Assembly: GCF_000424625.1 (NCBI RefSeq)
Contig: NZ_AUKG01000001.1
Span: 1,674,001-1,738,000, forward strand
DNA length: 64,000 nt
Reading direction: 5' to 3'
Source: Conexibacter woesei Iso977N
Lineage (GTDB): Bacteria > Actinomycetota > Thermoleophilia > Solirubrobacterales > Solirubrobacteraceae
Below, one piece after another: positions 6,153 to 31,572 of the stretch. A model generated the notes under the pieces. The model was not told the DNA's origin. It worked only from the letters and a program-made list of their open reading frames with translations, and did no database searches. The position numbers were made by a program, and so were the translations under genes. Each line of letters starts with the position of its first letter. Positions within the stretch are counted from its first letter, which is position 1.

Positions 6153-7248
6153 GGCCCTGGCCCTTCCGGACGCGTCCGATGTACACGTTGATGACCATCG
6201 CGACGAGGATCGCGATGCCGAGGATGAAGTCCAGGTAGTCGGCGCTGACGCCCTGGATCGTCAGCCCGTCGCGCAGGACGCCGAGGAACAGCGCGCCGAA
6301 CAGCGCGCCGATCGCGGTGCCCTCGCCGCCGGTCAGCAGCGTGCCGCCGATGACCGCCGCCGACACGGCGCGGAACATCGTCTCCGACGCCCCCGCGGTG
6401 TCCGGCTGGACCGACGAGGCGCGCGTGGCCTCGAAGACGCCGACGAGGCCGGCGAGCGTCGAGCAGAGGATGAAGTTGCGGATCACGACGACGCGGACCT
6501 TGATGCCCGCCTCGCTCGCGCCGTGCTTGTTGCCGCCCGCCGCGATCGTGTGCAGGCCCCAGCGCGTCAGGCGCAGCACGACCTGCAGGAGCAACACGAT
6601 CAACAACGCCCAGATCAGCTCCGAGTAGACCCCGGCGCCGAAGATCTTGGCGAACGTCCCGACGTGGTTGACCTGCTCGGGCAGCGTGATCGTCTGGCCG
6701 TTGACGACCTTGGTGACGTTCTCGGTCGTCGTGGTCACGTCGGCGCCCGGCATCGCGACCGGCGCGGCGTTGGAGATGATCAGCGTCAGGCCGCCGACCC
6801 CGAGCAGCGTGCCCAGGGTGGTGATGAACGACGACACGCCGACGACCTCGGTCAGCACGCCGTTGATCACCCCGACGATCGCCGAGCAGATCAGCGCCCC
6901 GATCAGGCACAGCACGAGCCCGAAGCCCCACTGGTGGAACTCGTAGAACATGAACGGGGAGAAGAGGTACACCGAGCCGATCGACAGGTCGATCTCGCCG
7001 GCGATCATCAGCATCGCCTCGCCGGCCGCCAGGATCGCGAACGGCGCGAAGTACGGGAGCAGCGTGACGAAGTTGTCGTGGGTGAAGAAGCGGTCGTTCT
7101 TCACGGAGAAGTAGACGATCGCGATGAGCGTCACCACGACGATGCTGCCCTCGCGCAGCGTGAGGAACCGCTTGGCGAGCTCGCCGGCGCCCGGGCGCGA
7201 GGCCCGGGCGGTCGGCTGCTCGGTCGGTGCGGACTGCAGCGCCGACAT
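6145..7248 (-). CDS. CUT2-type sugar ABC transporter, permease
   Basis: A 367-residue integral membrane subunit of the BPD_transp_2 (AraH/RbsC-like) family. Several long hydrophobic helices are seen, for example around SIVVVTLIAIVYFS and ILAAGEAMLMIAGEIDLSIGS; the EIDLSIGS element is the conserved loop of ribose/arabinose-type permeases. A hydrophilic insert of roughly 40 residues lies after the fifth helix (VAMPGADVTTTTENVTKVV), where family members usually have a shorter extracellular loop. The gene starts 6 nt after the binding-protein stop. Confidence 0.88.
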   Translation of the reverse strand: MSALQSAPTEQPTARASRPGAGELAKRFLTLREGSIVVVTLIAIVYFSVKNDRFFTHDNFVTLLPYFAPFAILAAGEAMLMIAGEIDLSIGSVYLFSPFMFYEFHQWGFGLVLCLIGALICSAIVGVINGVLTEVVGVSSFITTLGTLLGVGGLTLIISNAAPVAMPGADVTTTTENVTKVVNGQTITLPEQVNHVGTFAKIFGAGVYSELIWALLIVLLLQVVLRLTRWGLHTIAAGGNKHGASEAGIKVRVVVIRNFILCSTLAGLVGVFEATRASSVQPDTAGASETMFRAVSAAVIGGTLLTGGEGTAIGALFGALFLGVLRDGLTIQGVSADYLDFILGIAILVAMVINVYIGRVRKGQGLG

Positions 7249-28380: not shown

Positions 28381-28902
28381 ATGGAGGTCCGGATCCGGCC
28401 CTGGGACGAGGGCGACGCGGAGGCGCTGGCCGCGGCGGTCGCCGCCTCGCTGCCGGAGCTGCGCCCGTGGATGCCGTGGGCGGCCGACGAGCCGCAGCCG
28501 CCGGACGCGCGCCGCGCGTGGATCCGCGAGGCCAACGCGGCCGAGGCGGCCGGCGGCGACCGCACGCGCGCGATCCTCGCCGGCGGCGCGGTCGCCGGGT
28601 CCTGCGGGCTGCACCGCCGGATCGGCCCGGACGCGCTGGAGCTCGGCTACTGGGTCGCGACCGCGCTCACGGGGCGCGGCGTGGCGACGGCGGCCGTCGC
28701 GCTGCTGGCCGCCGAGGCGTTCGCCGACTCGGCGATCGGCCACGTCGAGATCCACCACGACCCGCGCAACGCCGCGTCCGGCGCGGTCGCCGCGCGCGCC
28801 GGGTTCACGCCCGTCGCGCCCGTCGCGACGGCGGGCGCGGCGCCGGAGCGGATCTGGCGCCTGACCCGTGCGGGGTGGGACGCGCTCACTGCAGGACGTT
28901 GA
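28381..28902 (+). CDS. GNAT-family N-acetyltransferase (RimJ/RimL-like)
   Basis: A 173-residue acetyltransferase that uses acetyl-CoA. Typical RimJ/RimL features are IRPWDEGDAEAL at the start, LELGYWVATALTGRGVATAAV (beta4-alpha3 with the pyrophosphate-binding loop GRGVAT) and HVEIHHDPRNAASGAVAARAGF near the end. The substrate may be a ribosomal or other protein N-terminus, or a small amine. The ATG lies within 12 nt of the operator at 28354-28369, so the message probably has almost no leader. Its 3' end overlaps the convergent gene at 28886. Confidence 0.87.
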   Translation: MEVRIRPWDEGDAEALAAAVAASLPELRPWMPWAADEPQPPDARRAWIREANAAEAAGGDRTRAILAGGAVAGSCGLHRRIGPDALELGYWVATALTGRGVATAAVALLAAEAFADSAIGHVEIHHDPRNAASGAVAARAGFTPVAPVATAGAAPERIWRLTRAGWDALTAGR

Positions 28903-29650
28903 ACCTCACCGGCTCGCTGCCGGGCACCGTGAGCTGCACGCTCGCCGGCTGGTTGGCCAGCTCGTAGACGTTGTCGATCACCGGCTCGTCGTGGCGCAGG
29001 CCGGTGTCGGCGTCGGTCACCGTGACCGACCGGACCCCGTCCGGGGCGATGCCGAACAGCGCGTTCCCGTCGCTGAAGGTCAGCGCGCCCGCGCGGGCCG
29101 CGGCGTCGGTGTTGCAGCCCGCCCCGATCGTGGCGTCGCCGACCGCCTGCATCCCGATGCAGACGAAGCCGTTGCCGGGCATCAGCCAGATGTTGTAGCC
29201 GTCGCGCGTCGCGATCTGCCGGGCGAGCCCGGCGTTGAGCCCGAACGGCCCGTCGTCCTGGAGCGTCCGGAGCGCCGTCATGTTGTCCGGGTCGGCTTCG
29301 GCGGCGCCGGCCGGCCGCGTCAGCGCCGACCAGGTGCTCGCGTCGGCGGCGGGGAGCGCGGCGACGACCGGCATGTGGATCTCGTTGCCGTCGGCGCCAC
29401 TGCTCAGGGGCCGGACCGCGGGCGAGGCGTGGTTCGCGTAGTGCACGACGGCGGTCGCGGCGACCGTGACCGGCACCGACGCGACCACCGCCGCGAGCAC
29501 CAGCGTGCGCGCCGTCATCCGGCGCGGCCGCAGGCGTGGGACCCGCAGGCGCGTGGGGGCGGGCGCGGGCGTGGGTGCGACCGGCAGCGGCTGCATCGCC
29601 GCCGCGGCGGCGATCACGAGGTTGCGCTTGTTCTGCTGGACGTAGGTCAT
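28886..29650 (-). CDS. membrane protein coupled to the ECF sigma factor, possible anti-sigma or sensor
   Basis: A 254-residue protein with a basic, proline-rich cytoplasmic N-terminus (1-45), one transmembrane helix (about 48-68, LVLAAVVASVPVTVAATAV) and an extracytoplasmic domain. Its ATG overlaps the sigma-factor stop (ATGA), the usual place for an anti-sigma factor, but no zinc-binding anti-sigma motif is present. The outer domain (from about residue 85) is related to the secreted protein at 30307-30954: shared ALTRPAGAAEADPDN / VLARPASADDTDN, IWLMPGNGFVCIGM / VWLIPANGALCLGL and GIAPDGV / GLAPDAV. I infer a regulatory partner of the sigma factor; no direct evidence for this. Confidence 0.75.
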   Translation of the reverse strand: MTYVQQNKRNLVIAAAAAMQPLPVAPTPAPAPTRLRVPRLRPRRMTARTLVLAAVVASVPVTVAATAVVHYANHASPAVRPLSSGADGNEIHMPVVAALPAADASTWSALTRPAGAAEADPDNMTALRTLQDDGPFGLNAGLARQIATRDGYNIWLMPGNGFVCIGMQAVGDATIGAGCNTDAAARAGALTFSDGNALFGIAPDGVRSVTVTDADTGLRHDEPVIDNVYELANQPASVQLTVPGSEPVRFNVLQ

Positions 29651-30213
29651 GCGAAGTGCTCCAGGTTCTTGCGAAGGGACTTCAGGCCGCGGCTGACGTT
29701 CTTGCGGACCACCAGCTCCGAGCAGTCCAGGCGGGCGGCGATCTCCGGGTACGAGAGCTCCTCCAGGACGCGGGCCCGGACGGCCTCGCGCTGGCGCGGC
29801 GGCAGCTCGTGCAGCGCACGGGCGAGGGCCGGGCCGTCCTCGCCGAGCGCGGCGATCGCGTCGAGGTCGACGTCGACGAGCGCGACCGGCTCCCACGCCG
29901 CCAGGCGGCGCCGCGCCTCCTCCTCGACGCGTCCGCGCCGGAGGCTGGTCGACAGCGTGTTGCGCGCGATCGTGAACAGCCACGCGGCCGCGGAGCCGTC
30001 GCCGTGCTCGCCGCGGAACTGCGCCGCGGCGCCGAGGACGGACGCGAACACCTCGCCGGTCAGGTCGACGGCGACCTCCGGCTCGCGGACGCGGCGCTGG
30101 AAGTAGGCGAGGATCGGGCCCTCCCAGCGGTCGTAGAAGACCGCGAAGGCCTCCGGGTCCTCGGCGGTTCGCTGCAGGAGGACGGCATCGCTGTCCTTGC
30201 CGGTCGGTCGCAT
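29647..30213 (-). CDS. ECF-type RNA polymerase sigma factor
   Basis: A 188-residue sigma70-family protein with region 2 (about 20-85: FAVFYDRWEGPILAYFQRRV and the AWLFTIARNTL stretch) and region 4 (about 130-182: LPPRQREAVRARVLEELSYPEIAARLDCSELVVRKNVSRGL). This is the usual two-domain ECF plan. The ATG follows TAGGAG. A strong GC hairpin (30254-30283) separates it from the upstream secreted-protein gene. CGTCC in its leader region resembles ECF -10 elements, so self-activation is possible but unproven. Confidence 0.93.
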   Translation of the reverse strand: MRPTGKDSDAVLLQRTAEDPEAFAVFYDRWEGPILAYFQRRVREPEVAVDLTGEVFASVLGAAAQFRGEHGDGSAAAWLFTIARNTLSTSLRRGRVEEEARRRLAAWEPVALVDVDLDAIAALGEDGPALARALHELPPRQREAVRARVLEELSYPEIAARLDCSELVVRKNVSRGLKSLRKNLEHFA

Positions 30214-30253
30214 CTACTCCTACAGGACGCTAGTGCGGGGAGCTTGTGACCGC

Positions 30254-30283
30254 AGGGGGTCCGGATGTCCACCCGGACCCCCT
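30254..30283 (-). terminator. strong GC hairpin between the secreted-protein gene and the sigma factor gene
   Basis: Perfect 11-bp arms AGGGGGTCCGG / CCGGACCCCCT with an 8-nt loop lie 23 nt after the stop of the gene at 30307. No T-run follows, but the stem strength makes a terminator likely. Confidence 0.6.
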
Positions 30284-30306
30284 CCGCGGTAGGGCATGCC
30301 GAGCGC

Positions 30307-30954
30307 TCAGCCTCCGTGATCGCCGCCGCCGTTGGCGTCGAACGACCGCGAGCCGTCCGGAGCGTCGAGCGTCACGGTGTTGTGGCCGGCATCGAGGGTG
30401 TAGACCTCGCCGCCGGTGCCGAGCGAGTCGCCGCCGGACGTCGCCGCGGCCGCGCGGGATGACGCGTCGGCCGGCGCCGCGTGGATCGCGGTGACCGCGT
30501 CCGGGGCCAGACCGTAGACCTGGGTGCCGTCGCCGATCGTGACGCCATCCTGGAGCGCGGCGTCCTCCAGCGTGCAGGAGATGCCGAGCGAGTCGGTGGC
30601 GGTGTCCTCGAGGCCGAGGCAGAGCGCGCCGTTGGCCGGGATCAGCCAGACGCGCCCGGAGGCGATGCTCCCGACGACGCGTGCGCCATCGGCATCGACG
30701 CCGATGCCCGACTGCGACGCGATCCGGGCGACGAGCGCGTTGTCGGTGTCATCGGCGCTCGCCGGGCGGGCGAGGACCGAGAACGCGGCCTTGTCGGCCG
30801 CCGTCGCCGGGACCGGGGTGTCGCTGGCGGCGGGGACGTCGAACCTCGGGTGATCCGGGCTGCTGACGGTCTGGGCGACGGCGACCGCCGCGGGGCCCGC
30901 GAGGGCGGCGGCGGCGAACAGGGCGGTGAGACGCAGGTTGATGTGCATGGTCAT
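30307..30954 (-). CDS. secreted protein, paralogue of the sigma-linked membrane protein
   Basis: A 215-residue exported protein with a signal peptide (residues 1-27). Its body aligns by eye with the outer domain of the protein at 28886-29650: ARPASADDTDN, VWLIPANGALCLGL, a second Cys at the GISC position, GDGTQVYGLAPDAV and a final VYTL segment. The two conserved Cys may form a disulfide. The tail is Gly/Asp/His-rich. It begins 5 nt after the preceding gene at 30960, so the two share a message. The function is unknown; the relationship to the sigma partner suggests a signal or decoy in the same response. Confidence 0.75.
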   Translation of the reverse strand: MTMHINLRLTALFAAAALAGPAAVAVAQTVSSPDHPRFDVPAASDTPVPATAADKAAFSVLARPASADDTDNALVARIASQSGIGVDADGARVVGSIASGRVWLIPANGALCLGLEDTATDSLGISCTLEDAALQDGVTIGDGTQVYGLAPDAVTAIHAAPADASSRAAAATSGGDSLGTGGEVYTLDAGHNTVTLDAPDGSRSFDANGGGDHGG

Positions 30955-30959
30955 CGTCC

Positions 30960-31376
30960 CTAGTAGCTGGTGTGGGTCGTGGTGGCGATGATGATGTCCA
31001 GGCCGGTCGCGTTGTCGACCCAGCCGTGGTAGCAGCAGCTGCCGTCCTCCGTGCGTGAGGCAAAGCCGCCGGTGCTCGAGCAGGCCCGCGTGCCCGAGGT
31101 CGTCTTCGTCGCCGACGCGTAGCCGGTCGTGCCCTGGTCCTTGGCGACGCAGAAGCCGTTGTGGTCCCCGCTGCCCTCGATGTAGGTGACGGAGTGAGCC
31201 TCGCTGCCTGCCCAGCCCCTGCCCGAGACCAGCGTCCCGCTGAAGTAGTGGTCGGCGCCGGCGAGGGCGGTCGCGGTCGAGGCCGCCGCGATCGAGAGGG
31301 TGGCAACGCCGATGAGCGCCTTGCGCCGAAGGCGGCTAGGCGTCCGCGCTGCTGCGGCATGGGTACGCAACATCAT
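30960..31376 (-). CDS. small secreted cysteine-containing protein
   Basis: A 138-residue protein with a signal peptide ending near residue 40 (ATALA/GADHYF). The mature part of about 98 residues has four Cys (NGFCVAK, TRACSST and the adjacent pair in GSCCYHGW) and many aromatic, Thr and Gly residues, as expected for a disulfide-stabilised extracellular domain. No family was recognised. It is the first gene of a two-gene transcript with the sigma-linked paralogue downstream. A palindrome (31409-31424) lies in its promoter region. Confidence 0.7.
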   Translation of the reverse strand: MMLRTHAAAARTPSRLRRKALIGVATLSIAAASTATALAGADHYFSGTLVSGRGWAGSEAHSVTYIEGSGDHNGFCVAKDQGTTGYASATKTTSGTRACSSTGGFASRTEDGSCCYHGWVDNATGLDIIIATTTHTSY

Positions 31377-31424: not shown

Positions 31425-31572
31425 CGCACAGCAGCACAACACGATCAGCTCTGCTTTGAGACACGACTGCGCGAATCGGGTGGGCGAGGGCGGCCGGGTT
31501 GAACATCTTCCGCAGCCCCGGTCACAGACGCTGCGCGAACGCGTCCGCCGGTGACATCGCGCCCCGGAACGC

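Follow-up and report, generated by a model that had tools for sequence, protein, structure and literature searches.

The ECF sigma factor SIG is encoded in the window (the whole 64,000-nucleotide stretch of DNA that was analysed) as part of a gene set that also comprises MEM, a membrane protein with one transmembrane (TM) helix to which SIG is translationally coupled, SEC, a secreted protein bearing the outer domain of MEM, and P4, a small secreted protein. The set appears to be an undescribed system by which secreted proteins are sensed at the cell surface. In the preferred reading, which is given a probability of about 0.4, SIG and MEM are an ECF sigma factor and an anti-sigma-type receptor, and the outer domain of the receptor, which is also made as a free secreted protein, probably binds small secreted proteins of the P4 type. 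This reading starts from the homology of SEC and MEM, the coupling of the sigma and membrane genes, the recurrence and adjacency of the two gene units (P4-SEC and SIG-MEM), and a promoter-like element, all of which are established. If the reading is true, a sigma factor would serve to sense self-encoded secreted proteins in a poorly studied branch of the soil actinobacteria with almost no known signalling biology. Identification of the ligand is directly testable, because the genome encodes candidate extracellular partners, namely the domain in soluble form and a small secreted protein.

The four genes and the shared outer domain

The genes follow one another on the minus strand in the order P4, SEC, SIG, and MEM; the calls of start codons, signal peptides, and small genes rest on simple rules applied to high-GC DNA. 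The locus contains the following features:

28886..29650, minus strand: MEM, one-TM protein of 254 aa, homologous to SEC
29647..30213, minus strand: SIG, ECF sigma-70 factor of 188 aa with sigma2 and sigma4, from Pfam/NCBIfam
30226..30251, minus strand: ECF-type promoter-like site GGTCACA-N15-CGTC before SIG, from the clade-wide GTCACA element and the exact-match genome count
30249..30290, minus strand: strong hairpin in the SEC–SIG spacer, lacking a T run, a possible terminator of P4-SEC
30307..30954, minus strand: SEC, secreted protein of 215 aa with a signal peptide, bearing the MEM-type outer domain
30960..31376, minus strand: P4, small secreted protein of 138 aa with four cysteines in the mature part
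31520..31545, plus strand: second GGTCACA-N15-CGTC site, upstream of P4 and oriented away from it

The spacer between P4 and SEC is 5 nt long and that between SEC and SIG is 93 nt long, while the stop codon of SIG and the start codon of MEM overlap in the sequence ATGA. The preliminary description of this DNA, from which P4 was absent despite its position 5 nt upstream of SEC, had rightly recognized a sigma factor coupled to a single-pass membrane protein. SIG matches the Sigma70_r2 (PF04542, 1.2e-8) and r4_2 (PF08281, 7.9e-15) families and scores 74 bits against TIGR02937 (cut-off 42.9), and it shows the ECF layout of sigma2 and sigma4 with no sigma3 at a size of ~190 aa. Its region 4 match stops at residue 180–182 of the 188 residues, leaving no C-terminal extension. 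MEM consists of a cytoplasmic part (residues 1–44), a single TM helix (~51–69), and a beta-rich outer domain (~90–254), and two conserved cysteines of the latter, C164 and C179, suggest that it carries a disulphide. Searches of Pfam and NCBIfam up to E = 1 gave no match for MEM and no recognizable class I anti-sigma (ASDI) domain, in agreement with the preliminary description.

The proposed kinship between the outer domain of MEM and the secreted protein encoded upstream is also significant: MEM and SEC share 34% identity over 109 aa (BLASTP, E = 2e-16), and searches of the whole 5.7-Mb genome with MEM or SEC each retrieve the other (1.4e-14 and 8.3e-15). SEC has no match in Pfam or NCBIfam, and 35 copies of the domain likewise match nothing in Pfam, the RsiV domain included. 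The search with a profile of the shared domain that had been suggested was made with 11 copies and matches at least 74 of 399 genomes of the window's class, and a wider profile matches at least 9 genomes in a phylum sample of 296, including 6 from the window's class; these counts are lower bounds, since a limited number of candidates was scored per genome. The domain has a wide distribution in the window's class and is rare in the remainder of the phylum sample. In an AlphaFold2 model built from 35 sequences, residues ~90–254 of MEM are predicted, mostly with pLDDT > 90, as a beta-rich domain that follows short helices. When this model was compared with PDB folds, nothing matched at E ≤ 1e-3, the nearest folds being small beta-sandwich domains (best 3sd2, aligned over ~73 columns), and PDB sequence searches returned nothing convincing.

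The sequence of the outer domain diverges fast, and in a tree of 40 copies, the secreted and membrane forms are not sorted into two clades (6 changes; deep branches weak). The window SEC groups with the SEC of G005, a second species of the window's genus, and the window MEM groups with the G005 MEM, while the SEC and MEM of g19 fall in different supported clades and the secreted and membrane copies of locus L082 are sisters. Because of these placements, SEC/MEM pairs appear to have arisen more than once. The window's own genome contains additional copies of the domain (G000:C2:852531, C2:679756, C1:1809424, C1:1248168, and others), some of them secreted and some encoded after a sigma gene, and the membrane partners at L088 and L091 apparently contain two tandem copies.

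The P4-SEC cassette and the recurrence of the complete set

A gene for a small secreted protein lies directly upstream of 34 of 53 secreted copies of the domain, compared with 32 of 435 control genes (Fisher 8e-21), as judged by an automatic rule that misses some visible cases (L089 and L107); many of the compared genomes are fragmentary, and this and the other statistics over loci ignore kinship. The proteins encoded by these P4-like genes have ~100–160 aa, for the most part with cysteine and numerous aromatic or polar residues, and are hypervariable between loci. None of the nine P4-like proteins searched against Pfam has a match, and the window P4 has no family match in Pfam or NCBIfam, where a single meaningless 13-bit match was returned. 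The only clear orthologue of the window P4 is that of G005, which is 70% identical in the mature part. Comparison with the P4-like proteins of the other genus by hhalign (probability 3%, E 0.014) does not demonstrate homology, and for this reason "P4-like" is used here as a positional and compositional class. The AlphaFold2 model of P4 has a pLDDT of 39 and offers no usable structure.

P4 belongs to the SEC-SIG-MEM arrangement, and the gene set recurs in other genera. The order P4-SEC-SIG-MEM, with SEC and MEM both bearing the domain, is found in the window, in G005, in five genomes of one other genus (G240, G396, G024, G041, and G055), and in one genome of a third genus (G017). In G005, where the MEM retains the outer domain at 46% identity, the set is split over two contigs and MEM, whose N-terminus falls in the gap between contigs, is presumed to be adjacent; in G017, the MEM domain is reached only with a refined profile (1.7e-10). 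The order SIG-MEM-P4-SEC, again with both copies of the domain, occurs at L093, L091, L210, and L211. SIG-MEM(domain) is divergent from P4-SEC at L082 and L092, and from a secreted copy of the domain that has no visible P4 at L200. P4-SEC adjoins SIG-MEM in several genera and in three gene orders. A P4-like gene lies within ~4 kb at 13 of 27 domain-bearing MEM loci and at 8 of 57 loci with other partners, a comparison within a biased sample, since the first 20 loci were chosen for co-occurring sigma and domain matches. About half of the domain-bearing MEM loci have neither a secreted copy nor a P4-like gene nearby. Secreted copies, for their part, have a P4-like gene as a neighbour more regularly than a sigma gene; many have no sigma nearby, and cassettes occur both with and without one. 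A defence-system reading was also considered and rejected, as there was no PADLOC match.

The sigma clade, its cytoplasmic motif, and its promoter-like element

The clade of SIG was sampled as 80 loci fetched around the closest sigma homologues and around domain matches. The start codon of the membrane partner lies exactly at −4 to the sigma stop in 67 of 84 recognized partners, and the sigma genes of this clade are, as a rule, coupled translationally to a one-TM protein. The cytoplasmic parts of the partners are short (median 38 aa) and contain the motif LPxLExxLxxAAxR, followed by a basic stretch and one TM helix. With a position-weight matrix, the motif is detected at p < 0.01 against the proteins' own shuffles in 78 of 80 partners; the matrix was trained on the same partner sequences, and leave-one-out scores are high too. 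The outer parts vary widely in length and sequence, the MEM/SEC domain being one class among them. In this clade of mostly coupled one-TM partners with varied outer domains, some 80 ECF sigma loci (L077–L156) have both the cytoplasmic motif and a GTCACA promoter-like element in common, and the LPxLExxLxxAAxR segment may be an undescribed anti-sigma segment that serves many different outer domains. An open-access literature search found no papers on sigma factors of the window's class. At L095 (G355:C42), five sigma genes of the clade lie within ~12 kb, and two of their partners (841–904 aa) have closely related large outer domains; at L129 (1–850, plus strand), an upstream frame matches the outer part of the sigma partner several times and may encode a repeat protein.

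The cytoplasmic segment of the window MEM (VQQNKRNLVIAAAAAM) is in the right register for the motif of the partners but scores −7.3, compared with at least 8.4 in the 80 partners; the residual match has p = 0.024 when position-restricted and p = 0.15 when position-free. Judged by its sequence, the segment is a degenerate version of the partners' motif. Binding of SIG by this segment is plausible, and because of the degeneracy, we only infer an anti-sigma role for the window MEM. A cytoplasmic part of 44 residues is not too short for such a role, since the class II anti-sigma factor CnrY uses a short two-helix segment (PMC7406223). Compared with this CnrY-like class, the segment has a fitting length (<50 aa); it carries the partners' motif in degenerate form and has a pLDDT < 50 over residues 1–19.

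Of 92 sigma genes in the clade, 81 have GTCACA upstream, mostly 48–80 nt short of the end of the examined upstream region, and the longer forms GTCACAA and GGTCACA occur upstream of 40 (0.8 expected) and 37 (1.45 expected) of them, respectively. The exact pattern GGTCACA-N15-CGTC, for which 0.10 matches are expected within the window, has three matches in the 5.7-Mb genome, two of which are at this locus, compared with none for a reversed-pattern control. The site at 31520–31545 (plus strand) points to a GC-rich hairpin a few tens of nucleotides further on, near the 3' end of a glutamine synthetase-like gene, and possibly gives rise to a short RNA. At L077–L081, GTCACA elements also lie upstream of P4 and are likewise oriented away from it, and a short sigma-like gene, divergent from P4, is found downstream of a GTCACA element directed at that gene at L077 (~6158–6576) and L081 (~6410–6870) (plus strand). 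Transcription of P4-SEC by SIG was considered but is not put forward: sense-oriented GTCACA lies upstream of 6 of 34 P4-like genes, compared with 2.9 expected, which is no clear enrichment. The 93-nt spacer between SEC and SIG, taken whole, has z = −1.9, and hairpins are also present in this spacer in G005 and in five g19 loci. As hairpins occupy the spacer, P4-SEC may be transcribed separately from SIG-MEM.

Possible mechanism and comparison with known systems

In the proposed mechanism, SIG and MEM would form an ECF sigma factor/membrane-regulator pair, in which the short cytoplasmic segment of MEM most likely holds SIG inactive at the membrane and the outer domain would receive the signal. 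Upon release by MEM, SIG would drive its own transcription and that of MEM from the GGTCACA-N15-CGTC site observed upstream of SIG. The outer domain, predicted to be a disulphide-bearing beta domain, would be the binder of a P4-type secreted protein. Since free copies of the domain share a two-gene unit with a P4-type protein, SEC would act outside the cell as P4's soluble partner. MEM would be the receptor in the membrane, reading P4 itself, the complex of P4 and SEC, or the occupancy of SEC; SEC and MEM may compete.

The outer domain might instead bind an environmental or envelope ligand, as in RsgI-like sensing, with SEC being an effector that uses the domain, MEM sensing the same ligand, and P4 being another effector. 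Clostridial anti-sigma-I factors combine an extracytoplasmic module for sensing with a TM domain and an intracellular part that binds the sigma factor (PMC6056542), and many one-TM partners of the clade have other outer parts without the domain, as expected for sensors of varied cues. However, the domain resembles no known binding module, and its tight pairing with one small secreted gene would remain unexplained; this reading is considered rather unlikely. The preliminary description had suggested ligand competition or homotypic signalling; in such a scheme, free SEC would bind MEM, or the ligand of MEM, and thereby set the threshold of SIG. The shared domain behind this proposal stands, SEC and MEM adjoin in several genera, and such pairs have apparently formed more than once; however, no secreted copy lies near about half of the domain proteins that are coupled to a sigma, many secreted copies lack a sigma gene in their vicinity, and the secreted copies are linked more regularly to P4-like genes than to SIG-MEM. 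Competition or homotypic signalling is therefore not the sole natural reading, and as an explanation of the whole set it appears improbable.

The properties of the P4-like proteins, which are small, secreted, mostly cysteine-containing, and hypervariable between loci, would also suit an antagonistic or self-recognition protein, with SEC as its co-secreted inhibitor and MEM as a sensor of such proteins from the cell itself or its neighbours. The fast divergence of the outer domain and the occurrence of cassettes with or without a sigma gene point the same way, but the proteins of the window are similar to no toxin or defence family, and antagonism is given a slim chance. The degenerate cytoplasmic motif, scoring below all 80 partners, would be explained if the MEM of the window's genus had no anti-sigma activity and were a membrane-anchored partner of SEC that merely resides in the operon of the sigma factor. 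Such a loss of function is very improbable, as the start–stop overlap and the register of the motif are kept, the residual in-register match has p = 0.024, and the G005 MEM retains the outer domain. The reading of MEM as a receptor for P4-type proteins could be extended to a whole family of bacterial surface-signalling modules. Each would pair a hypervariable small secreted protein with a secreted binder in one cassette and place an ECF sigma factor under the control of the binder's membrane-anchored form. Through sigma release, the cell would read a protein signal that it makes itself and that is specific to its lineage (quorum, kin recognition, or antagonism); this generalization is tentative and rather unlikely.

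The earlier view that no described system has this arrangement was too strong, given the outer sensory modules of RsgI (PMC6056542) and the role of RsiV as a receptor for a secreted protein (PMC5014341). The promoter of ECF41 sigma factors, TGTCACA-n16-CGTC (PMC3426412), is nearly identical to the GGTCACA-N15-CGTC site at SIG, but the C-terminal regulatory extension of ECF41 is absent and SIG ends right after region 4. The class II anti-sigma factor CnrY binds sigma4 and sigma2 through a short two-helix cytoplasmic segment of <50 aa (PMC7406223). The window pair resembles this type in combining an ECF sigma factor with a membrane protein whose cytoplasmic part has <50 residues, whereas the outer domain of MEM is unrelated, MEM has no detectable similarity to named anti-sigma domains, and its contact with the sigma factor is a presumed one.

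The outer modules of RsgI proteins are related to modules of secreted proteins. In clostridial RsgI anti-sigma-I factors, sensory modules are located outside the membrane and the sigma gene is in an operon with the TM regulator (PMC6056542), and the window likewise joins a sigma gene and a TM regulator with an outer module in one operon. In contrast to RsgI, MEM has no RsgI Pfam match and its partner is an ECF sigma factor rather than sigma-I, and the domain of MEM is novel and tied to a small secreted protein. RsiV is an anti-sigma factor that is both the receptor and the inhibitor of a secreted protein, lysozyme (PMC5014341). By analogy with SigV/RsiV, MEM may work like an anti-sigma factor whose outer domain is the receptor for a secreted protein; MEM differs in lacking the RsiV domain and in having a candidate ligand that is encoded next door by the same genome.
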